Source of the DNA: Nitrospirota bacterium
GTDB taxonomy: Bacteria > Nitrospirota > Leptospirillia > Leptospirillales > Leptospirillaceae
Length of the DNA: 64,000 bases
Assembly: GCA_021820445.1 (NCBI GenBank)
Contig: JAKADN010000001.1
Coordinates: forward strand, 62,001 to 126,000
Reading direction: 5' to 3'
The number at the start of each line of letters is the position of its first letter. The first letter of the stretch is position 1. Below the pieces are notes generated by a model. That model ran no database searches and was not told the origin of the DNA. It saw only the letters and a program-made list of their open reading frames with translations. Positions 3,435-17,202 of the stretch are shown piece after piece. A program made the position numbers and the translations under genes.

Positions 3435-3887
3435 TTACTGACGATTGCCGGTCCCCTTCGGGACGGTGGGCAAGAGAAGGATTTTCTGGATCAGGGCGCC
3501 CTTCGGCGTCTCCCGATAATCGATCTCGAGGTCCGTCCCTTTTTTGAGGGCCCTGACCCCCACCGTCCGGCCCCCGGAGTAGACCATCGTGTCGGGGACC
3601 AGAACCCCTCCGAAGAGGAAGACAAGAAAAGGGTCCTTCCCCAGGGTGGCGGTCAGGGTCATAGGGTGGTGTGACAGATCCAGGCTGTCGAGGCGGCCAA
3701 CAAAACGCCGCAGGGAGGGAGATCTGGCTTCGGGCTTCTTCAGACCCGGATGGGCAACCGGTGGATGGAGCTCGGCCGACGCGATTCCAGGCAAGAGAAG
3801 GAGCACCAGAAGAAGGGCCGGGAGTCCGAAGCGCCGTCCTGCGGGAAGGAGAAACTGTGAAAGGGGGAGGCGGCCAGGGGGATTCAT
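3435..3887 (-). CDS. Hypothetical secreted protein coupled to glgX
   Basis: A 150-residue protein of unknown family. A hydrophobic segment ([21 protein letters not shown], residues about 20-40) ending in an AxA-type site indicates a Sec signal peptide. The mature part is small and beta-rich ([33 protein letters not shown]), and resembles small periplasmic OB- or metal-binding-type domains without a firm match. Its ATG overlaps the glgX stop by 4 bases (ATGA), so it is the last gene of the trehalose/glycogen operon and probably translationally coupled. Why a secreted protein belongs to this operon is unclear. Confidence 0.65.
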
Positions 3888-6085
3888 GGAGAGGAACCGT
3901 TACCCCCGGCAGGAATCGGGCGTGGGAGAGGCCGGGCGACCTCTGCTCCGGATTTGCTTTCCTGCAGGACGAAGAGGGCCATCGACCGCCCCGGGGTATC
4001 ATAAGGGCGCCCTCCCCGAAAAAAGCTCCGGCGGGGAGGGAGGGCCCCCGGACGGGGGTGGGCGGTGTCGAGAAGAAGGGACCAGTGGGCGCCCTTCCGG
4101 TGGGCGGGCAGGATGAAGGAGACGGTGTCGTAGTGGGCGTTGAAGAGGATGAGGAGGGTGTCTCCCGACAGGGGACGCCCCCGGCTGTCCCGCTCATCGA
4201 TCAGGTCTCCCGAGAGTCTGACCCCCAGGGTCCGGACAAAATCGGCGTTCCACTCCTCGTCGGTCATCTCGTGGCCGGTGGGGGAGAACCAGGAGATGTC
4301 CTTGATCTCCGAGCCGCGGATCTTGCGCCCGTGGAAGAACTTCCTCCGCCGGAGGACAGGGGAGGAGCGGCGGAGGGCGATCATGAAGCGGGTGAAGGCG
4401 AGAAGGTTTTTCTGGTCGGCCGTCAGGGTCCAGTCATACCAGGAGAGGTCGTTGTCCTGGCAGTAGGCGTTGTTGTTTCCCCGCTGGGTCCGGGCGATCT
4501 CGTCGCCGCCGCAGAGCATCGGGACTCCCTGGGAGACCATGAGGGTTGCGATGAAGTTCCGCATCTGGCGGAGCCTGAGATCGCGGATCTCAGGTTTGTC
4601 GGTCGGGCCCTCTTCTCCGCAGTTCCAGCTGATGTTGTCGTTGTTTCCGTCACGGTTTTCCTCGAGATTGGCCTCGTTGTGCTTGTCGTTGTAACTCACG
4701 AGGTCGTTTAAGGTGAATCCGTCGTGGGCGGTGACGAAGTTGATGCTCGCGTGGGGGCGTCGTCCCTCCTGCTCATAGAGATCGCTGCTTCCGGAGAGGC
4801 GGGTGGCGAGTTCCGCCACCTGGCGCCCGTCCCCTTTCCAGAAGCGACGGATCGTGTCCCGGTACAGCCCGTTCCATTCAGTCCAGAGTGAGGGAAAGTT
4901 CCCGACCTGGTAGCCGCCTTCTCCCACGTCCCACGGTTCGGCGATCAGCTTCACCTGGGAGACGACAGGGTCCTGCTGGATGACGTCGAAGAAGGCGGAG
5001 AGCTTGTCGACCTCGTGGAGCTCCCGGGCCAGGGCGCTGGCCAGGTCGAACCGGAATCCGTCCACATGCATCTCGAGGATCCAGTAGCGGAGGCTGTCCA
5101 TGATCATCTGGAGGACCTGGGGATGGCGCATGTTCAGGGTGTTTCCGCACCCGGTGTAGTCCATGTAGTACCGGGGCTCCTTTTCCATCAGGCGGTAGTA
5201 GGTCGGGTTGTCGATTCCCCGGAGCGACAGGGTGGGACCCAGGTGGTTTCCCTCGCAGGTGTGGTTGTAGACCACGTCGAGGATGACCTCGATGCCCGCG
5301 TCGTGGAGCGTCCGGACCATCCGCTTGAACTCGTTCGAGGGAGACATGGTTCCCGAGCCGTAGCGGTTGTCCGGGGCAAAGTAGGAGAGGGTGTTGTATC
5401 CCCAGTAGTTGGTGAGCCCCCGGGTGACGAGTGTGTGCTCACTCGCGTGTTGGTGGACCGGCAGAAGTTCGACGGCGGTGATCCCCAGATCCGTGAGATA
5501 GTCGACGACCGGTTCGCTGGCGAGCCCGGCGTAAGTGCCGCGAAGCTCCGGCGGAAGATCCGGGTGCAAGGCGGTGAGCCCCTTGACGTGGGTTTCGTAG
5601 ATGACCGTCTCCGACCAGGGGGTCCGGGGAGGCCGGTCGGTCCCCCAGACGTAGGCCGGATCGAGAACGACCGCGAGAGGGGCCCCTGCGGCATTGTCCC
5701 GGGTGTCCATCACCTTGTCCCCTTCGGGATGGCCGAGAGGATAGGCGAAGAGCGTGTCGTCCCACCGGACCCTCCGGGCGATCTCCTTGGCATAGGGATC
5801 CAGAACGACCTTGTTCGGATTGAACCTAAGTCCTCTGTCGGGATCGTAGGCTCCATGGACCCGATAACCGTAAATCAGCCCCGGCCGGGCATCGGGAAGG
5901 TAGAGGTGCCAGATGTGGTTGGTCCGCTCGGAGAGGGGAATGCGGATCGATTCGGCGGTGGCGGAGCCGTCGGGAAAGAGGCAGAGTTCCACCCCTTCCG
6001 CGTTCTCGGAAAAAAGGGAGAAGTTGACCCCTTTTCCGTCCCAGGTGGCTCCCAGGGGAAAGGGTTTTCCGGGCATGGTCCTCAC
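3884..6085 (-). CDS. glgX: Glycogen debranching enzyme GlgX (GH13 isoamylase type)
   Basis: Hydrolyses alpha-1,6 branches of glycogen limit dextrin in the cytoplasm, supplying linear maltodextrins to TreY. The 733 residues match the family length. An N-terminal CBM48-like domain ([28 protein letters not shown]) is followed by the GH13 barrel: region I DVVYNH (270-275), region [10 protein letters not shown] with nucleophile Asp about 347, region III AEPWD with acid Glu about 383, region IV TAHDG about 460. The start GTG (6085) overlaps the treS stop as GTGA; an ATG at 6076 is the alternative. All catalytic residues are intact. Confidence 0.93.
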
Positions 6086-7872
6086 GGTCCCTGTCCTTCG
6101 GGCCCGGCCGTGGAGCGGCGCCCGGACCGGGGAGATCCCGAAGCGCGCGTCTTTTTTTTCGGATTCTCAGGCGACTGGACATCTCCCAGACGACGGTGGG
6201 GGTGGGAGTGGGGGGCTCCTTGAGTGCGGCCGGGAGGGTGCAATGCGAGCCAGAAGAACCCATAGGGACTCACCGTGAAGTGAAATCGGGAATTCCGGAT
6301 GGGGGGGAAGGGATTGTTGCCGAAAAGCTCCACGGGAACATGGTTCCGGAATCGGGAGAGGTCGACCGTCACTGATTCGGTGCGGTCCGAGAGGTTGTTG
6401 AGGATCAGGACGACATCGTCCCCCAGCTCGCGCAGATAGGCCAGAACACTCCGGTTTCGGGTATTCAGGATGGTCAACCGCCCGCGCCCGAACAGTCTGG
6501 TCGCCTGCCGGACGGCCAGCATCTGCCGGAGGGTGTTGAGGGGGCTGGTGGGATAGCGGGCCTGGTTTTCCACATTGACGACCTGGTAGCCGTAGATGGG
6601 GTTCTGGATGACCGGAGCGTAAAGGTCGGAGGGGTTGGCCCGGGAAAATCCTCCATTCCGGTCGGAGGACCATTGCATCGGGGTCCGGACTCCGTTCCGG
6701 TCCCCGAGATGGACATTGTCTCCCATGCCGATTTCGTCGCCATAGTAAAGAATGGGTGTTCCGGGAAGGGTCAGGAGCAGGCTGTGCATGAGGTCGATCT
6801 TCCGGCGGTCGTTCTGCATGAGGGGAGCGAGCCTCCGCCGGATCCCGATGTTGAGCCGCATCCGCGGATCCTGGGCGTAGGTGGACCACAGGTAGTCGCG
6901 CTCCTGGTCGCTCACCATCTCGAGGGTCAGCTCGTCGTGGTTTCTGAGGAAGATCGCCCATTGGCAGCTCTCCGGAATGGGCGGGGTCTGCTCGAGGATG
7001 TCGATGACGGGCTTCCGGTCTCCCCGGGCGATGGCGATGAAGAGCCGGGGCATGAGGGGGAAGTGGTAGGCCATGTGGAACTCGTCGCCGTTTCCGAAGT
7101 AGGGAAGGACGTCCTGGGGCCACTGGTTGGCCTCGGCCAGAAGCATCCGGCCGGGGAACTCACGGTCGACCTCGGCCCGGAGGCGCTTCATGAAGGCGTG
7201 GGTCTCCGGAAGGTTCTCGCAGTTCGTGCCCTCCCGCTCGTAGAGATAGGGAACGGCGTCGCAGCGGAGGCCGTCCACCCCGAGGGAGAACCAGAACTTG
7301 ACCACCTTCAGAAGCTCCTCCTGGACCATGGGATTGTCGAAGTTCAGGTCGGGCTGGTGGTGAAAGAAACGGTGCCAGTAGTACTGGCGCGTGCGGGGCT
7401 CCCAGGTCCAGTTCGACTTCTCCGTGTCGCTGAAAATGATCCGGGTTTCCTTGTAGCGGTCCGGGGTGTCGCTCCAGACGTAGTAGTCCCGGAAGGGAGA
7501 GGAGCGGGAGGAGGCGGCGGAAATGAACCAGGGATGGGTGTTGGAGGTGTGGTTCAGCACCAGCTCCGTGATGACGCGGATCCCACGGTCATGGGCCGCC
7601 GAGAGGAAGCGCTGGAACTCCTCCATCGTTCCGTAGGGGGGGTAGAGGGCGTAGTAGTTCCGGATGTCGTAGCCGTCGTCCCGAAGCGGGGAGTCGGTGA
7701 AAGGAAGGAGCCAGAGGGCCGTGACGCCCAGGTCCTGAAGATAGTCGAGGCGTCCCGTCAGTCCGGCAAAGTCTCCGATTCCGTCGGCGTTGGAGTCGAA
7801 AAAAGACTTGACCGGGATTTCGTAGATGATGACGTCCTTGTACCAGTCGGAGGCTCCTCCGAGGGTTGTCAT
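6082..7872 (-). CDS. treS: Trehalose synthase TreS (maltose alpha-D-glucosyltransferase)
   Basis: Interconverts maltose and trehalose by intramolecular transglucosylation (GH13 family 16). The 596-residue protein shows [19 protein letters not shown], region I LVLNHTS (N107, H108), region [12 protein letters not shown] (nucleophile D205), region [12 protein letters not shown] (acid E247) and region [10 protein letters not shown] (H312, D313). [18 protein letters not shown] is typical of TreS. No maltokinase domain is fused. The last 45 residues (after LALHPPGR) are rich in Pro, Arg, Ser and Lys and look disordered, an unusual tail. ATG overlaps the upstream stop by 4 bases. A catalytically degenerate paralogue is encoded immediately upstream. 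Confidence 0.93.
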
Positions 7873-9536
7873 GGGGTGGCCTCCGCTTTTTTCTTCCGGA
7901 CCGGACGGCGGCCGGGAAGGAGTTCGAGCCAGATGAAGGAGTAGGGGGTCATCGTGACGAGATAGGGATGGCGGGGAATTTTCGGGAACAGGGCTCCCCC
8001 GAAAAGTTCACGGGGGAGAAGGGAGGCAAATTTTCCGAGTTTGAGCTCCCCGCTGACGGAGTTCTTCGAGAGATTGTGGACCAGGAGGCAGGTTTCGTCG
8101 CCCGCCCGGCGGGTAAAGGCGAAGAGAGCGGGGTGAGTGGTTTCGACGATGCCGAACTGGCCCTGGCTCCAGAGGGCGGGCTGTCGGTTCCGCACCTCGA
8201 TCATCCTCCGGACGTTCCAGAGATGGGAATCGGCGAATCGTTCCTGGCTCTCCACGTTGACCATCGTGTAGCTGTAAAGGGGGTCGTCGATGACCGGATT
8301 GTAGAGCTCTTCCGGGTCGGCGGCGGAAAATCCCGCGTTGCGGTCCGAAGACCACTGCATGGGGGTGCGGACGGGGTTTCGGCCCGGGAGGTGGGGATGG
8401 TCCCCCATGCCGATCTCGTCGCCGTAATAGAGGACGGGAAGACCGGGAAAGGTGAAGAAGAGGCTGGCTGCGAGCTGGATCCTGCGGCGTCCGTTCTCCA
8501 TGATCCGGGCCACGCGGGCCAGGACCGGGCGCTCCTCCGAGGAGACCTCCTCGAGGGGGAAGATCGCGTCCCCTCCGTCCTCCTCGAGAAACTTTTCGAA
8601 GGTCTCTTCGGAGCGTTCCCGGAGGTCGAGGGTCCATCGGATCGGAAGATCCTTCCGGGTGTGGAACTCGCGTTCGCCCGAGGCGATGGCCTGTTCGAGG
8701 GCCTCTTTGTTTTCCTCCTTCACCGACCGGATGACCGAGGGAAAGAATCCGTTGTAGTGGTAGAAGAGTCGGGGATCCTGGGAGAAGGCGCCCCGGGGGG
8801 GCGCGCTTGTCTCGAAGAGGAAGACCCGATCGGGAAAAGAGCTCCGGAGGGGAGCGAGGATCCCCGAAAGCTGCCGGAAGGGGTCGGTGACCAGCTCGAT
8901 TCCCTCTTTGCCCAGACGGTGGAGCCGGCCCGATCCCGCGAGCCGGAATCCGTCGAATCCCAGGGTGAACCAGTGCTCGAAGACCCTCCGGATCTCCTCG
9001 CAGATATCCGGGTCCCCGTAGTTGATCGCCGGTTCGTCCTTGTGGTCCTGGTACCAGTAGTACTGGCCCGTCTCGTCGTCCTTGGCCCAGTTCGAGATTT
9101 CCGGCGTCTCCTGGTCCGGGGAGGAAGGGAGCTTGAGGCGGTTCGACCAGAAGAAGCTCTTCCTCAGGTATCGGGAGCTTCGGTCCCGGGATTCGAGAAA
9201 CCAGGTGTGCCGGTCGCTGGTCGCATTGATCGGAAGGGAGGCCAGGACCTTGAGCCCCTTGGCGTGGGCGGCCTCGATGACGACCAGAAGTTCGGAGAGC
9301 GATCCCAGGGAGGCGTCCGGACGCATCCAGTCGGTCAGGGGGTGGCGGCTGTTGCCGGAGAAGGACTGGAAGGGGCAGTTCAACAGGATCCCCTTCACCC
9401 CGAGGCGGGCGATGTAGTCCATCCGTTCGAGAATCCCCCGGAAGTCCCCCACCCCGTCTCCGGATTTGTCATAGAAGCTTCGGATGTAGATTTCGTAAAG
9501 GATCCCGCGGGAGATCCAGAGCTCGGTGTCGTCCAT
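7869..9536 (-). CDS. TreS-like GH13 pseudoenzyme (catalytic residues lost)
   Basis: A 555-residue protein aligns end to end with the neighbouring Tre[74 protein letters not shown], and the C-terminal beta domain. At the active site, region I LVLNHTS becomes LPINATS (His to Ala), and region II GLRCDA becomes GFRLAG (nucleophile Asp to Ala, residue about 200). Region IV RNHDEL becomes TLDLRE (His and transition-state Asp lost). Only the region III Glu (FLFETS) remains. The frame is intact and uses the operon's overlap style (TGATG with treY, ATGA with treS, AAGGAGGG upstream), so it looks maintained. A structural, regulatory or sugar-binding role is inferred. Confidence 0.88.
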   Translation of the reverse strand: MDDTELWISRGILYEIYIRSFYDKSGDGVGDFRGILERMDYIARLGVKGILLNCPFQSFSGNSRHPLTDWMRPDASLGSLSELLVVIEAAHAKGLKVLASLPINATSDRHTWFLESRDRSSRYLRKSFFWSNRLKLPSSPDQETPEISNWAKDDETGQYYWYQDHKDEPAINYGDPDICEEIRRVFEHWFTLGFDGFRLAGSGRLHRLGKEGIELVTDPFRQLSGILAPLRSSFPDRVFLFETSAPPRGAFSQDPRLFYHYNGFFPSVIRSVKEENKEALEQAIASGEREFHTRKDLPIRWTLDLRERSEETFEKFLEEDGGDAIFPLEEVSSEERPVLARVARIMENGRRRIQLAASLFFTFPGLPVLYYGDEIGMGDHPHLPGRNPVRTPMQWSSDRNAGFSAADPEELYNPVIDDPLYSYTMVNVESQERFADSHLWNVRRMIEVRNRQPALWSQGQFGIVETTHPALFAFTRRAGDETCLLVHNLSKNSVSGELKLGKFASLLPRELFGGALFPKIPRHPYLVTMTPYSFIWLELLPGRRPVRKKKAEATP

Positions 9537-12433
9537 CAATGGCCCTCCTTGGGGGAGACCGGTCCGGGCCCCCGGAAAAGGACGGTGAACACTGTGCCTC
9601 CCATCGCAGAATCCAGAGGGAGCCCCTCGCGTCCGCCGGATTGGCGGGGAGCGATTTTTCGTCCCGTCAGCAGGTGGGTCCAGGGATCGCTTTCCCCCTC
9701 CGGCAGGGGAATCGACCCCACCGGCCTTTTACGGGAGAGCAGTCCGCCCCCTTCCTCGAGGCTCCCGGCCACGCGACGATCGACCACCACGAGAAGGTCC
9801 CGGTCGGGAAGGCTTCGCCTGAACCCCAGCATACCATGATCTTCTTCCCATTCCGGGGGAAAGGGGCGATAGTCTCCTTCGAGAAAGAGGGAGGGGTGGC
9901 TCTTTCTGAGATTTAAGAGGATCCAGGTAAGAAAAAGCTTGATGCGGCCGTCGGTCCAGTGGGTCAAAAATCGCCGGAAGGCGTATTCCGGATTGGCGGT
10001 CCATTGGTCTATGACGGACTTCAGAAGGCGGGTCCTTCTGGAAAAGTCGACGGGCCGGCGGTTGTCGGGGTCGACCAGGGAGAGGTCCCAGAGTTCGTCC
10101 CCGCGGTAAAGGTCGAAGACTCCCGGAGAGGCGGCTTTGAGAACGATCTGGGAGAGCGAGATGGCGGCCCCTTCCTGAGCGAGGACCCTCTGGAGGGACA
10201 GAAAGTCCTTCAGAAAGGGGGACGGCCTCTCGGGACGGAGAATCTCCCGGAGAAAGCGGCAGACCGCCTCCTCGTAAACGAGGTCTGGGGTGATCCAGTT
10301 GGTGTGGCGCTTGGACTCCCGGAGGGCTTTGACCACATAAGCCTCCAGACGCTGTCCAAAATCCGGTTCCTCCCGGCCGGGAAGGGGCCAGGCCCCGATC
10401 AGGGTCTGGTAGAGAAAATGTTCGAGGGAAGGGTCGGGGACAGCGGCATCGCTTTTGTCCCGGGTTCTCAGATCCCGATTCATGACCCGCCATTTTTCGA
10501 CCCGTTCGATCCACAGGGCGGCGTGGCCGGAAAGGGCCGTGATCCGGGCCCGGAGATCGGCGCTTCGCTTGGTGTCGTGGGTGGAGGTCGTGGAAAGGGA
10601 GAGGGGGAGCCGTTCGAGCCGGTCCCGGTTGAAGCGGTGGAACGCATCGGGTCCCTGGGGAGGGAGGCCCGGATCGTTTCCCACTTCATTGGCGGAGATC
10701 AGGGGGGTATAGAGGTAAAAGGAGGTGTCCTCGATTCCCTTGGCCATGACGGCCCCCGAAAACTGTTGCCACTTGAGGACGAAGTCTGTCCATCGATTCC
10801 GTTTCTCGTGACTGCTTCCGGCAGGAAAATCAAGAGTCAGAAGCCGTTCGAAAAAGCGGAAAAGCCCCGCCCTTCGGGAGGGATGGCGCAGCCGGGCAAG
10901 GTCGAGCGCCCGTTCGATCCGGGCCCGGGCCTCTTCGGGGACGCTGCCATCCCGGATATAGGTCCGGTAGACCTCAAGGCAGGCCGTCACCTCGACCAGT
11001 CCGGCCTGAAGCTCGCGGAATCCCGTTTCCCGCACGTCGCGCTCCTCCATGGCGATCCATTCAAGGAGGAGGGTCAGCCGGCGCAGTTCACCCCCCATGA
11101 GGGTTTCCGCCACAAATTTTTTTTGCTGGTAGGCGATGTCCGAAAAGGAGCGGTCGGGGGCGAGAACGGTTTCGTACCATTCCGAGAGCTGCCGGGCCCC
11201 TTCCGGGTCTGTGAAGAGTCCGGACAGGAAGGCCGCGAACTCATAGCCGGTCGTTCCCAAGACCGTCCAGTCCGGCAGGGATTCGTCCCGGGCCAGAATC
11301 TTCTCCACCCAGATGAGGGGGGGCCATTCCGGCCGCTCCTCCTGGAGGAGGCGCGAGAGGCGGTGGAGGTAGTCGGCGGGGTCCCGGAGCCCATCGACGT
11401 GGTCGACACGGACCCCGTCGATCCATCCGTTCCGGCTCCACTCCCGGACGAGCCGGTGGAAGGCATCGAAGACACGGTCATCCTCCATTCGGACTCCGGC
11501 GAGGTCCGCCACATCGAAGAAGCGCCGATAATTCAGGGTTCGCGTCACCGTTTTCCAGTGGGACAGCCAGTAGGCCTGGGCGGAAAGAAGGGCGTCCATC
11601 CGGTCGAAGGAGGAGGAAATCCCCCGGATTCCCCGATATTCGGCCAGAACCCGTTCCAGGGCCTCCCGGAACAGGTCGTTGCTCTGGTACAGCCGTTTCA
11701 GAAGAAGGTGGAGCGTCCGTCGGGAGCGGGATCTGAGGCGCCGGGACAGGGGATCGGAACGACGTTCGGGAAGGGATTCCGTGCGTTTTAACAAAAGGTC
11801 GAGAGTGTTTCGGAGCAATTCGGCATCAGGGCGAGATCCGGAGGGAAGAGCCTCCTTGATCTCCCGGAAGACCGGGGCCAGCGTGGCCGGGTCGACGGGG
11901 AAAAGGGTCTCGTAGTAGCGGACGGCGAAGCCGTTTTTACCGTAGACCAGTTCGAGTTCCTGGTTTTCCAGAACTTTCCGGTAGGAGTCGCCGAGAACCG
12001 GCAGGCTGAGCCGGTGCTCGAGGGCGCGCTGGGGCGGGTTCCAGTCCACGTCGAAGAACATGGAAAAGGGGGAGGCTTCTCCGTTTTCAAGAAGATCCCG
12101 CCACCAGGGATTTTCATAGTGGGCGGCCATGTGGTTGGGGACGATGTCCAGAATCAGACCCATTCCCCGGCTCCGGAGTGTCCGGGACAGGTGCTCCATG
12201 TCGGCGGGAGTTCCGATCTCGGGGTTTTGCCGGGTGGGGTCGATGAGGTCGTAGCCGTGTCCGCTCCCCGAACGGGCGGCGAAGAGGGGGGAGGCGTAGA
12301 TCGTGGTGACACCCAAGCGCTCGAGATAGGGAACGAGGCGTGCGGCCGCTGTCAGGCGGAAGTTCCGGGAAAAGCCCAGTCGGCAGGTGGCAAGAGGAAG
12401 CGGCCCCGTCTCCCCGGTGAAATAGGGCTTCAT
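9533..12433 (-). CDS. treY: Maltooligosyl trehalose synthase TreY
   Basis: Converts the reducing-end alpha-1,4 linkage of maltodextrins to alpha,alpha-1,1, giving maltooligosyl-trehalose, the substrate of TreZ. The 965 residues are somewhat longer than many TreY proteins. GH13 features: YASPLFAARSGSGHGYDLIDPTRQNPE, region I DIVPNHMA, region II GVRVDHVDGLRDP, region III IWVEKIL, and the TreY-typical TSTHDTKRSADLRARI. Starts at ATG 12433, overlapping the treZ stop as ATGA. It ends in the TGATG that starts the pseudo-TreS gene. Long plus-strand ORFs here are antisense shadows caused by high GC. (The track gives the end as 9536; the last bases overlap the next start.). Confidence 0.92.
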
Positions 12434-14355
12434 GGGCTGGTCTCGGTCAGAAGGAGGATCCGGTAGGGCTCGAGAAGGAGTTCCGTCTGGTCGGCAGGAG
12501 AGAAGGTGGAGGCCTTTCCTCCGAAGAAAGGACCCGAGTCGAGAAGAAGGGAGAGGACCCCTACCTTCCAGTCGGTCGGGAAAAATGGAGCCGGGAGGGT
12601 CCGGGGCTCCCGGGAAGCGTTGGCCAGAAGGAGGATCCGTGGTTTGTTAACCTCTCCCCGCATGAGGAAGAGGAGGCCGTCTCCGGGAGAGAAAACACGG
12701 TTTTGGGGAGTTCCGATCGGGTCAGGAGGGAGAAGGGCCGGAGAGGTCCTCCGGATTTCGGCGAGACGGGAGGTCCAGCCCAGGAGGGATTGCTGGAAGG
12801 GAGAGAGGGAGGCTCCCGGGTCGGTCAGGGTCAACCGGGAGCGGTCGAAGGTCTCGGGGGACTGGGGGTCCGGCACCTCTCCCGACCAGCCGAAGGCGGA
12901 GAACTCCTTCTTCCGGCCTTCGCGCACCGCCTGCACGAGGTCGGCGTCTCCGTGGTCCGTGAAGTAGAGGAAGGGGCGCGTCTCTCCGTATTCCTCCCCC
13001 ATGAAGAGCAAGGGGAGTCCGGGAGAGAGGAGGACCAGGGCGGCCACGAGGGGAAGAGCCTCCGGCGGAAGAAGGGTCGAGAGGCGGTCTCCGTTCCTGC
13101 GGTTGCCTGTTTGGTCGTGGTTCTGGGCAAAAAAGACGAAGGAGCGAGCGGGAAGGTCTTCGGAGGGGGATCCCCGCCGGCACCGGAAAGAGGGTGAAGG
13201 CTGCCCCTGGTAGACGAAGCCCTTCGAAAGGGCGAGGACGAGGTCCTCCGTTTCGGAAAAGTCCTGATAATAGCCGTCCCTCTCGCCGGTGAAGTGGACA
13301 TGGAGGGCGTGGTGGAAGTCGTCGCTCCACTGGGCGTCGAATCCCAGTCCGCCTCTTGAGACGGGGAGGACCGTCCGGCGGTCGTTGGCGTTCGATTCGG
13401 CGACGAGATGGAGGATACGGCCCCGGCGGGAGGCGATGTTTTTTGCCAGATGCGACACGTCGGCCAGAAAGGGATGGGGGGACTGGTCGCGGATGGCATG
13501 GATCGCGTCGAGACGGAATCCGTCCAGATCGAAGAGAACGGCGAGGGTTCTCAGGTTCTCGAGAAAGAAGTGCCGGACATGGTCGCTCTCCGGTCCGTCG
13601 AAGTTCAGCGCCTCTCCCCAGGGAGTCCGGGTCGTCTCCGAGAAATAGGGTCCGAAGGACGAGAGGTAGTTGCCTTCCGGCCCCAGGTGGTTGAAGACGA
13701 CGTCGAGAAAGACCGACAAGCCTCGCCGGTGCGCCTCCCGAACGAGGCGGAAAAGGCCGTCCGGGCCCCCGTAGGACCATTGGACGGCATAGGGGAAGAC
13801 TCCGTCATACCCCCAGTTCCGGACGCCGGGGAACTGGGCCACCGGCATGAGTTCGATGGCGGTCACGCCGGTCCGTGCGAGGTGGTCGAGAGAGGGGAGG
13901 ATCCCCTCGAATGAGGAGGAGGGCGAAAAGGTTCCGACGTGAAGCTCGTAAAAGAGGAGATCCGCAAGGGAGTGGCCGGGAAAGGGGTGCGGGGGAGCCT
14001 CCGGGGGCCCCCAGACGGTCGAGGGTCCATGGACGCCCTCCCGCTGGAGACGGGAGGCCGGATCGGGACGGAGGATCTCCCCGTCGATCAGGTAGCGGTA
14101 GGTGGTCCCGGGGAGGGCTCCCTCGAGGAAGGTTCGGAAATAGCCGTTTTCCTCCCGCTCCAGACGATGGCGGGAGGGTGTCCCCGGCCCTTCCACGATG
14201 AGATCGAGGGTCCGGACCCGGGGGGCCCAGACCCGGAAGAGCGTCCCGGAAACATCCGGAACGGCCCCCAGGGGGCCAAGGTCGCGGGGGCCGGCCTGGC
14301 TTCCCGGTGGGCGTGAAAAATCCTTCTCGCGATCGGTCGTTTCCTCGCGCTCCAT
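12430..14355 (-). CDS. treZ: Malto-oligosyltrehalose trehalohydrolase TreZ
   Basis: Releases trehalose from the maltooligosyl-trehalose made by TreY. The 641-residue protein has the N-terminal beta domain (TLFRVWAPRVRTLDLIVEG) and then ELHVGTFSPSSSFEG. The GH13 blocks are DVVFNHLGPEGNY (region I), DGFRLDAIHAI (nucleophile Asp), LVAESNANDRR (acid Glu) and FFAQNHDQTGN (region IV). FMGEEYGETRPFLYFTDH is typical of TreZ and GlgB relatives. ATG 14355 has an AAAAAGGAGA ribosome site. It is the promoter-proximal gene of the six-gene minus-strand operon. Confidence 0.93.
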   Translation of the reverse strand: MEREETTDREKDFSRPPGSQAGPRDLGPLGAVPDVSGTLFRVWAPRVRTLDLIVEGPGTPSRHRLEREENGYFRTFLEGALPGTTYRYLIDGEILRPDPASRLQREGVHGPSTVWGPPEAPPHPFPGHSLADLLFYELHVGTFSPSSSFEGILPSLDHLARTGVTAIELMPVAQFPGVRNWGYDGVFPYAVQWSYGGPDGLFRLVREAHRRGLSVFLDVVFNHLGPEGNYLSSFGPYFSETTRTPWGEALNFDGPESDHVRHFFLENLRTLAVLFDLDGFRLDAIHAIRDQSPHPFLADVSHLAKNIASRRGRILHLVAESNANDRRTVLPVSRGGLGFDAQWSDDFHHALHVHFTGERDGYYQDFSETEDLVLALSKGFVYQGQPSPSFRCRRGSPSEDLPARSFVFFAQNHDQTGNRRNGDRLSTLLPPEALPLVAALVLLSPGLPLLFMGEEYGETRPFLYFTDHGDADLVQAVREGRKKEFSAFGWSGEVPDPQSPETFDRSRLTLTDPGASLSPFQQSLLGWTSRLAEIRRTSPALLPPDPIGTPQNRVFSPGDGLLFLMRGEVNKPRILLLANASREPRTLPAPFFPTDWKVGVLSLLLDSGPFFGGKASTFSPADQTELLLEPYRILLLTETSP

Positions 14356-14375: not shown

Positions 14376-14404
14376 ATCTTACCCGATTGGTCCGGGTCCT
14401 TCAA
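14376..14404 (-). promoter_or_regulatory. Predicted sigma-70-type promoter of the trehalose operon
   Basis: On the minus strand TTGAAG, a 17-base spacer, and TAAGAT lie 20 bases upstream of the treZ ATG. Spacing is optimal, and each hexamer matches the consensus at four positions. The expected 5' leader would be very short. Confidence 0.5.
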
Positions 14405-14513
14405 CAGGATCCATTGGACGCGGGCAGTAGGAGGCCTTTAGAATGGAGGTCACGAATTTCTGAAAGGCCCACGACAACGTCAATTGGATATTTTCTGGAA
14501 AGAGAGGACATTC

Positions 14514-16553
14514 ATGGCCAATCGCCTGGGACGGGAAACCAGTCCCTATCTTCGTCAGCACGCCGACAATCCGGTGGACTGGTATCCCTGGGGAGAGGAG
14601 GCCTGGAAGGCGGCGGGAGAGACCGGCAAGCCGGTCCTTCTCTCCATCGGGTACGCGGCCTGCCACTGGTGCCATGTCATGGCCCACGAGTCCTTCGAGG
14701 ATCCCGAAACGGCCCGCCTGATGAACGACCTGTTCGTCAACATCAAGGTGGACCGGGAGGAGCGCCCCGACCTTGACCATATCTACCAGACCGCCCACCA
14801 GCTTCTGGCCCGGCGCGGGGGAGGATGGCCCCTCACCATCTTCTTGACCGGACGCAAGGTCCCCTTCGCTGCCGGAACCTACTTTCCCAAGACCGGACGA
14901 TTCGGCCTTCCCGGATTCTCCGAGGTTCTGAACCGGATCCACGGCTTCTATGTCGAGCACAGGGACCAGCTCGAAAGTCCGGACAACCGGTCGGTCGTGG
15001 AGACACTGGATCTCCTGGTCCCGAAGCGCACGGAGGGTGTTGTTCTGTCGGCCGCTCCCGTCGAAGCCCTTCGGGCCCATTTGCGGCAGCTCTTCGACGC
15101 TCAGGACGGAGGGTTCGGGGGGGCTCCGAAGTTCCCCCACGCCCAGGGTCTGGCCTTTCTGCTCGACTCCCCCGAAGCCGGGGACCGGGAAATGGCCCTC
15201 TTCACCCTTCGCAAGATGGGGCGCGGGGGGATCTACGACCAGATCGGAGGAGGGTTCGCACGGTACAGCGTCGATGATCGTTGGGAAATCCCCCATTTCG
15301 AAAAAATGCTTTACGACAACGGCCCCCTTCTCGGGCTCTACGCCCGGGCCTACGACCTGTCGAAAGATCCCTTCTTCCGGAGGGTGGCGGAGGAGACGGT
15401 TGCCTGGGCCGATCGGGAGATGAGGGCCCCTGAAAGCCTCTGGTATGCCTCCCTCGATGCCGACGCCGAAGGAGAAGAAGGGAAGTTTGCACGATGGAGC
15501 CGTGAGGAAATAGAGGCGGTTCTGTCGGAGGAGGAGAGGCGGGTCGCCGACGCCTGCTTCGGATTCGGCCTTCCCCCCAATTTCGAGCACCAGTACTGGA
15601 ATCCCGTCCTCGTCCGGACCCCCGAGGAGTATGCCCAGGAGGAAGGGAGGAATCCGGAGGAGGTCCGTCGCCTTCTGGAATCGGCCCGCAAGCGTCTTTT
15701 CGAGATCCGGGAAGGCCGCGTACGCCCCGGCCGCGACGAAAAGATCCTGACCTCCTGGAACGCCCTCTACCTGCGGGGGCTCCTCGAGGCCGGAAGGATC
15801 CTCGAGCGGCCGGACTGGATCGAACGCGCCCTGGCCGGCTTTTCCGCCATTCGGACCCATTTGTGGAAGGACGGTCGTCTTCTGGCCGTCCGGACCCTGG
15901 GAGAGAGCCGCCTCCCCGCCTATCTCGACGACTACGCCTTCCTGCTCGAGGCCCTTCTGGAAAGTCTCTCGGCCGCCTACTCCGAAGATCGGCTGGCCTG
16001 GGCGAAGGAGATTGCCGGGGTCCTTCTGGACCAGTTCGAAGACCGTGCGGAGGGAGGTTTTTTCTTTACCGCTCGCGATCATGAAGAACTCCTCTGCCGG
16101 ATCAAGACCGGCCACGACCAGTCCCTTCCCAACGGAAACGGGGTCGCTGTCCGGAGCCTCCTCCGTCTCGGATCCCTTCTCGGGGATCTCCCCATGCTCG
16201 AAGCGGCAGAAAGGAGCCTCACGCTCTTCGCGGGGACCTTCAACACCCGGCCGGAGGGTTTCGACACCCTTCTTTCCGCCCTTTCCTACCGACTCTCCGG
16301 GGCTCCGACGGTGGTTCTCCAGGGGCCGAATGCCGCCTCCTGGCAGTCGCAGGCAAGGTCTGCCGGATCTCCGGCATGGATCGTTCTCTCTCGGGAAGGA
16401 ACTCCAGTCTCCGGGAAGGCTCCGGGGGCAACAGGGGTCACCCGGGCCTGGATCTGCGGAACCTTCGGATGCCTTGCCCCGGTCGATGGGGATTCCGGGC
16501 ATTTTCTGTCGGAGCTGGCGGCGATTGGAACGGCTGGAGGAAGCCATGCTTGA
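14514..16553 (+). CDS. Thioredoxin-fold DUF255 protein (YyaL / SPATA20 family)
   Basis: About 679 residues. The N-terminus [29 protein letters not shown] and [20 protein letters not shown] (CxxC-type pair at about 50 and 53) are the signature of the widespread DUF255/YyaL family: a thioredoxin-like domain followed by an alpha/alpha-toroid resembling N-acylglucosamine epimerases. Its biochemical role is not established. The start is set at ATG 14514, where the family homology begins and an AGAGAGGA site precedes it, rather than the upstream TTG at 14484. Cytoplasmic. It overlaps the downstream esterase by 8 bases, so the two are probably co-transcribed. Confidence 0.85.
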
Positions 16554-17202
16554 TGCGGTGATCCTCGAGACGGGGCCAGATCCCCGATGGGCGGTGATCT
16601 GGCTCCACGGACTGGGCGCCGACGGCCATGACTTCGAGGGAATCGTTCCTGAGATTCCTCTTCCTCCCGTTCCCCTCCGCTTCATCTTCCCGCACGCTCC
16701 GGTCATGCGGGTCAGGGTCAACGGAGGGGCCCCCATGCGGGCCTGGTATGACGTCGCACTGGCCGACCTCTCCCGCTATCCCGACCTCGTGGGAATGAAT
16801 CGGTCCGTGAGCCACCTGCAGGCGCTCGCGAAGAGGGAGGAGGAGCGTGGAATTCCCCCGGAACGGATCATCCTGGCCGGCTTCTCCCAGGGAGGAGTGA
16901 TCGTTCTTCTGACCGTCTTCGGGGATCCAAGGATTCGATGGGGAGGTGTCCTGGCCCTGTCCACCTATCTCCCTCTCGATTCGGGGCTTCTCCTCTCGGA
17001 TAGTCCGACCCCTCTTTTCATGGCGCACGGCACGGAAGATCCCGTCGTTCCATTCCGCCTCGGCCGGAAGACCTTCGAGACGCTCGAGGGGCTGGGAACA
17101 AAAGGAGCCCGGAAATGGGAGCAGTATGCGATGGGCCATTCCGTCTGCCTCCCGGAGATCGGGGACATCGGCTCCTGGATGGGCGGGATCCTTGAGTCGT
17201 GA
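16546..17202 (+). CDS. Carboxylesterase/phospholipase-family alpha/beta hydrolase
   Basis: A 218-residue esterase of the YpfH/EstB (abhydrolase 2) family. [22 protein letters not shown] carries the oxyanion-hole [29 protein letters not shown] is the classic family block. AGFSQGG is the nucleophile elbow (Ser), GTEDPVVP supplies the Asp, and MGHSV the His. It likely hydrolyses short acyl or aryl esters; the natural substrate is unknown. ATG 16546 lies inside the end of the DUF255 gene (ATGCTTGA overlap) with CTGGAGG upstream. The track ORF from 16012 is an artefactual extension into the neighbour. Confidence 0.87.

Follow-up and report, generated by a model that had tools for sequence, protein, structure and literature searches.

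What does a second gene of the trehalose synthase family do in front of treS when its product has lost essential catalytic residues? The question is raised by the trehalose operon in a stretch of 64,000 nucleotides (the window) from a Nitrospirota bacterium of the family Leptospirillaceae (assembly GCA_021820445.1, contig JAKADN010000001.1, positions 62,001 to 126,000), where the gene of an active trehalose synthase (TreS) of glycoside hydrolase family 13 (GH13) is directly preceded by that of a 555-residue paralogue, here called pseudo-TreS. A preliminary description of the locus, made from the letters, had taken this paralogue for a maintained pseudoenzyme. We propose, with a probability of roughly 0.6, that pseudo-TreS takes part in a TreS hetero-oligomer as its non-catalytic subunit and has been kept by selection.

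The reading frame opens with an ATG at position 9536 and is free of internal stops. As had been claimed, its product and the neighbouring TreS align from end to end (34% identity and 53% positives in 558 columns), and the solved structures that it matches best are those of TreS proteins. The model TIGR02456 (treS_nterm) covers residues 7-539 with a score of 381 bits, as compared with 894 bits for the neighbour; the curated cut-off of this equivalog model is 678 bits, and pseudo-TreS thus falls below the score that marks an active TreS.

Where TreS has the triad Asp-Glu-Asp, pseudo-TreS has Ala, Glu and Ser, and the histidines of regions I and IV are replaced by Ala and Arg. The losses of the nucleophile (D205 to A200) and of the region-I His (H108 to A105) are those already named in the preliminary description; that of the region-IV His-Asp also stands, but not the pairing with TLDLRE from which it had been read, the correct alignment using LRERSEETFE, which places Arg-Ser at this site and keeps E310 and E314 (in 17/17 sequences of the orthologue set described below). 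A point absent from that description is that the general acid/base Glu (E242) has been retained. In the −1 subsite, D65, Y68 and D69 of TreS have become N62, H65 and P66. The retaining GH13 reaction depends on the nucleophile Asp, and the lost residue of pseudo-TreS lies in the context R-L-A-G-S-G, with no neighbouring carboxylate; because of these two facts canonical TreS chemistry is, judging from the alignment, very unlikely. The +1-subsite residues Tyr213, Glu320 and Glu324 of the D. radiodurans enzyme (PMC4257617) align with R204, E310 and E314, the tyrosine being gone and both glutamates being present.

It is unlikely that pseudo-TreS is no pseudoenzyme at all but an enzyme that has acquired a new function and uses another set of catalytic residues. 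Such an enzyme could use the acid/base Glu, found in 16/17 orthologues, and several new conserved carboxylates near the pocket, and GH13 enzymes with aberrant triads such as BmaN1 are active (PMC5347038); but the RLAGSG motif offers no substitute beside the nucleophile position, both region-IV residues are lost, divergence is greatest in the gate subdomain S7 (0.31 on the scale explained below), and the orthologue from genome G017 lacks both the acid/base Glu and E307, yet is otherwise conserved.

The catalytic residues are retained in the about 110 other TreS sequences inspected, the exceptions being a misread locus and a sequence in which Thr stands in place of the nucleophile. The latter, from a Saprospirales assembly (L080:5240-6847), reads VRLTSVMY, with acid/base Glu and region IV intact, and is possibly a second, independent loss or else an error. 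A second TreS-like copy in the genome of Rhizobium sp. BK650, which holds L116, contains two in-frame stops (G399:C15:135989-137617).

Orthologues of pseudo-TreS were searched for in 41 relatives and in 396 genomes of the phylum. They were found in 17 genomes from five genera of the window's own family (16 with an intact gene, and G005 with a split copy), with 55-100% identity to the protein of the window. A profile built for pseudo-TreS gave at least 974 bits with intact orthologues and at most 445 bits with TreS, with no full-length protein in between. The aligned set comprises 17 sequences, two of which are from G002. Outside the family, three phylum searches (the 396 genomes and two samples) yielded no orthologue-level match: none came from 297 sampled genomes of the phylum of an acidobacterial locus, and none from 399 sampled genomes of the phylum of a rhizobial locus, where the threshold was failed by true TreS as well, so that this search had no positive control. 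A contig scan of genomes gave no relative with more than 36% identity among the matches listed, and viral contigs gave distant fragments only. Since the losses are common to all 17 orthologues while the other TreS keep the residues, the comparison indicates that they are due neither to chance nor to sequencing error.

The preliminary description had called for a dN/dS check on orthologues. The ratio of nonsynonymous to synonymous substitution rates (dN/dS; Nei-Gojobori method) is 0.05-0.22 for pairs of pseudo-TreS genes and 0.03-0.14 for treS in the same 16 genome pairs, at similar dS; in no genome pair does the value for pseudo-TreS exceed that for TreS by more than a factor of about 2.3. With a dN/dS of 0.05-0.22 pseudo-TreS is under purifying selection. 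Between genera it has evolved faster than TreS (55-71% identity as compared with 73-82%), and the 17 copies have 182 invariant residues in common (96 + 46 + 40, a few gap columns possibly being counted). Decay of a pseudogene, or a sequence error, which the lost catalytic residues, the faster evolution and a frameshift in G005 might bring to mind, is refuted by these ratios and by the family-wide orthology: the frame is intact in every other copy, all copies share the losses, and the invariant residues are many. The copy of G005 (L027:931-2705) is split near codon 358, unlike every other, by what is either an assembly error or local decay. The alignment restores no catalytic residue and the orthologues throughout the family carry the same substitutions, so that the view of pseudo-TreS as a maintained pseudoenzyme beside its active paralogue appears well supported.

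The origin of the gene is less clear. In a tree of full-length sequences pseudo-TreS sits on a very long branch, and grouping it with the family's own TreS gave p = 0.09 in the approximately unbiased test for the full length and p = 0.57 for residues 370-546 (S8 and C domain). On these trees the grouping is neither demonstrated nor rejected, and a duplication within the family is possible.

With which protein might pseudo-TreS work? In all family genomes examined, pseudo-TreS and TreS adjoin wherever either gene is intact; four genomes of incomplete assembly have neither as an intact gene. The overlap of start and stop codons seen in the window (ATGA, 4 bp), to which the preliminary description had drawn attention, recurs in 15/16 orthologous pairs. 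The surroundings vary: in some genomes the order is treZ-treY-pseudo-treS-glgX, in G015 and G018 it is treZ-treY-pseudo-treS-glgE-maltokinase, and in G017 and in a second copy of G002 the pair stands alone, without other trehalose or glycogen genes in the stretch fetched. Because the pair occurs there without the rest of the operon, it is the pair, and not the operon, that is the conserved unit. G002 contains two divergent pairs (L024 and L025), one in a full operon and one alone, which suggests that the two genes were transferred or duplicated together.

How the two proteins might interact can be read from the regions that have been conserved. TreS from D. radiodurans is composed of a barrel, a subdomain B, the S7 gate, the TreS-specific subdomain S8 and a C domain; its dimer interface is formed mostly by C and S8, while access to the active site is opened and closed by B and S7 (PMC4257617). 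We transferred the borders of these parts to pseudo-TreS by motif offsets and divided the identity of pseudo-TreS to other TreS by that of the family's TreS to other TreS. The quotient is 0.49 for the barrel, 0.51 for B and 0.31 for S7, as compared with 0.91 for S8 and 0.94 for C. S8 and C are thus present in pseudo-TreS at the level of conservation found in TreS (identity to other TreS 0.60 and 0.35, respectively; TreS among themselves 0.66 and 0.38). Of the positions at which 95% or more of TreS agree, those kept by all pseudo-TreS number 31/40 in S8 and C and 41/124 elsewhere (Fisher p = 1e-6). By this comparison pseudo-TreS has lost catalysis and the gate and has kept the dimerisation module.

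The former active site has been altered but, as the alignment indicates, it is not eroding. Among 21 pocket positions (published ones and three that we added) 14 are invariant among pseudo-TreS, as compared with 95/344 other positions in barrel, B and S7 (p = 4e-4); burial may contribute to this conservation. Charged residues that are new and invariant or nearly so are R64, H65, D164, K166, E168, R204, E307, R308 and E311, and the net charge of the barrel columns has changed from −9.5 in TreS to +2.7. These properties would suit a sensor or carrier that forms homodimers and binds maltose, trehalose or a sugar phosphate in the old TreS pocket with no complex with TreS being formed: conservation is stricter in the altered pocket than in the remaining barrel, the shift in charge fits an anionic ligand, and the preserved S8/C interface permits homodimers. 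We consider this possible but rather improbable, as the strict pairing with TreS, the 4-bp overlaps and the stand-alone pairs point to a shared complex, and as the literature searched contained no known sugar sensor of such a type within GH13.

The preliminary description had offered three non-catalytic roles, namely subunit of a hetero-oligomer with TreS, allosteric sensor and glycan tether. The first appears to fit best because S8 and C have been selectively preserved; a sensor pocket would be compatible with it as an added role, and the tether has found no specific support. We therefore favour the hetero-oligomer, for which the following course of events can be envisaged. A TreS paralogue would have lost the GH13 reaction before the five genera of the family split, and selection would have held the gene since. 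Co-translated with TreS, pseudo-TreS would pair with the active enzyme via the TreS dimer interface, that is, S8 and the C-terminal beta domain, and would thereby stabilise TreS or tune the interconversion of maltose and trehalose. The rebuilt active site probably still has a ligand, which may be a sugar or an anionic sugar phosphate and could carry a regulatory signal. In its most specific form, which we regard as doubtful, the proposal is that of an obligate hetero-oligomer that combines a catalytic GH13 subunit with a dead one; the positively charged pocket of the latter would sense a metabolite of the pathway, for instance maltose-1-phosphate, and steer TreS towards trehalose or towards the GlgE glucan pathway.

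Several points speak against the proposed heteromeric subunit. The conservation of S8 and C suits a homodimer of pseudo-TreS equally well; S8 also lies near the active site, so that its conservation could serve folding; in the structural model the S8 segment has a confidence score (predicted local distance difference test, pLDDT) of about 39-56, as compared with about 51-73 in a TreS control; the pocket residues are partly buried, so that packing may explain their conservation; and an aberrant triad does not preclude activity in GH13 enzymes, as exemplified by BmaN1 (PMC5347038). BmaN1, however, has an Asp one residue downstream of the nucleophile position, where pseudo-TreS continues with Gly and Ser.

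The model in question, an AlphaFold prediction of pseudo-TreS built on distant TreS, has a pLDDT of 76 and a predicted template modelling score of 0.81, and agrees with TreS crystal structures with a TM-score of about 0.8; the predicted fold is that of TreS. S7 and S8 are of low confidence, the control made with the TreS of the window being better in S7 and somewhat better in S8. Two arguments were dropped: low confidence in S8 as a sign of partner dependence, because S8 of the control was also weaker, and an electrostatic fit of pseudo-TreS S8 (net charge −7.6) to the TreS C domain (+3.9), because TreS homodimers would attract each other too.

In the C domain a charge switch is seen: a Lys in 17/17 pseudo-TreS (K491) faces in the alignment an Asp in 18/18 TreS of the family (D496, window 6385-6387), where most other TreS have Arg or Lys. 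The switch may be the mark of a subunit contact. The same region bears on whether pseudo-TreS could serve as a docking subunit, recruiting maltokinase to TreS in place of a docking surface that TreS itself has lost. In mycobacteria the residues of TreS contacting maltokinase include P511, R536 and R320 (PMC6509496). At the first two of these three contacts pseudo-TreS keeps P469 (16/17) and K491 (17/17), the TreS of the family having mostly Arg at the one and always Asp at the other, and genes for GlgE and maltokinase lie nearby in the window's genome and directly downstream in G015 and G018. Docking is nevertheless highly improbable, since the family's maltokinase is without the Asp residues that pair with these contacts in Pep2 of M. 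smegmatis, and pseudo-TreS has Glu, Asp, Asn or Ser at the R320 contact.

Published primers bear on the expression of the gene. A primer used for quantitative polymerase chain reaction in Leptospirillum ferriphilum, treS1-F (PMC6828654), matches pseudo-TreS exactly in G002, G005 and G007, which belong to the window's genus, and differs from the copy in the window by one mismatch. In G002 the reverse primer is found at the published distance of 101 bp, with three mismatches. It was from this match and from published descriptions of the locus that the analysis identified the family as Leptospirillaceae. The treS2 primers of the same study (PMC6828654) had no convincing match among the loci examined. 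Since the treS1 primers match and treS transcripts were reported (PMC6828654), the pseudo-TreS gene is expressed in L. ferriphilum. By these matches treS1 of L. ferriphilum corresponds to the dead paralogue and not to the active TreS, and it was counted there as a trehalose synthase. Its transcript level would then carry no direct information on trehalose synthesis, which is a correction to the literature (PMC6828654). Pseudo-TreS also offers a clean natural experiment in which TreS dimerisation is separated from catalysis, and the complex, if it exists, would be a new control of the branch point between trehalose and maltose in bacteria for which tolerance of osmotic stress is important in bioleaching.

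Positions of the trehalose genes in the window and of the sites in pseudo-TreS discussed in the text
Feature	Position	Strand	Evidence or conservation
Pseudo-TreS, 555 aa, catalytically dead TreS paralogue (predicted)	7869..9536	minus	ORF, TIGR02456 model, alignment to TreS
TreS, maltose alpha-D-glucosyltransferase, 596 aa, catalytic residues all intact	6082..7872	minus	TIGR02456, alignment
ATGA overlap, pseudo-TreS stop / TreS start	7869..7872	minus	
Codon 105, region-I His (H108 of TreS) to Ala	9222..9224	minus	Ala in 17/17 orthologues
Codon 200, nucleophile Asp (D205 of TreS) to Ala	8937..8939	minus	Ala in 16/17, Ser in 1/17 orthologues
Codon 242, general acid/base Glu (E247 of TreS) retained	8811..8813	minus	16/17 orthologues; Gly in G017
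Codons 308-309, region-IV His-Asp (H312-D313 of TreS) to Arg-Ser	8610..8615	minus	17/17 orthologues
Subdomain S8 of pseudo-TreS (residues about 372-437)	8226..8423	minus	Borders from PMC4257617 via motif offsets
C-terminal beta domain of pseudo-TreS (residues about 452-541)	7914..8183	minus	PF16657
TreY, malto-oligosyltrehalose synthase	9536..12433	minus	TIGR02401, 834 bits
TreZ, malto-oligosyltrehalose trehalohydrolase	12430..14355	minus	TIGR02402, 635 bits
GlgX/TreX glycogen debranching enzyme	3884..6085	minus	TIGR02100, 1038 bits

The genes of the operon follow each other in the order treZ, treY, pseudo-treS, treS and glgX, with overlaps of 1-4 bp. TreS ends in a low-complexity tail with many Arg, Ser and Pro residues (552-596; window 6085-6220) that is predicted to be disordered (pLDDT about 30), and pseudo-TreS in a short tail rich in Lys and Arg. 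Just outside the window on the left are genes for GlgE and a maltokinase-like protein (L042:7891-11432, G000:C14), and the source genome has the TreS-maltokinase-GlgE route; they are followed by an ORF for a transporter of the MFS type that reaches into the window at 28-687 and is convergent with the tre operon. An ORF of 785 codons (14379-16736, minus strand) is antisense to one of 689 codons (14484-16553, plus strand), has no family matches and is probably spurious.

How does pseudo-TreS compare with known systems? With TreS (GH13_16, TIGR02456) it shares fold, length, subdomain order, the sequence of S8 and C domain, and operon context; unlike TreS it has lost the nucleophile, the region-I His, the region-IV His-Asp, Tyr and Asp of the −1 subsite, and the S7 gate. 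The BmaN1 group of alpha-amylases resembles it in that non-canonical triad residues are conserved within the group, but BmaN1 is active and has the Asp next to the lost nucleophile that is missing here (PMC5347038).

Among the sequence matches of pseudo-TreS was rBAT. Like 4F2hc, it is a heavy chain of the SLC3 type, which have the GH13 fold and are non-catalytic partner subunits. These, however, are membrane-anchored proteins of animals and only distantly related to pseudo-TreS.

TreS is itself an oligomer, dimeric or tetrameric, and the mycobacterial enzyme associates with maltokinase (PMC4257617, PMC6509496). The mycobacterial TreS:Pep2 complex is similar in that a hetero-oligomer of the GlgE pathway is built around TreS as its core (PMC6509496), genes for GlgE and maltokinase also being found near the pseudo-TreS locus, and dissimilar in that the partner here would be a dead TreS rather than a kinase and the docking residues on the kinase side are not conserved.

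No publication describing a TreS pseudoenzyme was found in the open-access literature. The preliminary description had called a dead GH13 protein in tandem with its active paralogue unusual, which has to be qualified, since there is a precedent within GH13 in plants (PMC3787081, PMC12510319). In Arabidopsis the catalytic subunit ISA1 binds its homologue ISA2, either being destabilised without the other (PMC3787081), and the substitutions that make ISA2 noncatalytic are conserved throughout green plants and algae (PMC12510319). Plant ISA2 (GH13_11) and pseudo-TreS are both GH13 paralogues without nucleophile and other catalytic residues, lineage-wide and kept together with an active paralogue. 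They differ in GH13 subfamily and pathway, and whereas the hetero-oligomer of ISA2 has been shown (PMC3787081, PMC12510319), that of pseudo-TreS is proposed for the products of a bacterial operon. If it exists, it would be the bacterial counterpart of ISA1/ISA2; by this analogy a dead GH13 partner subunit, of a kind known from plants, would be new in another enzyme family and in bacteria.

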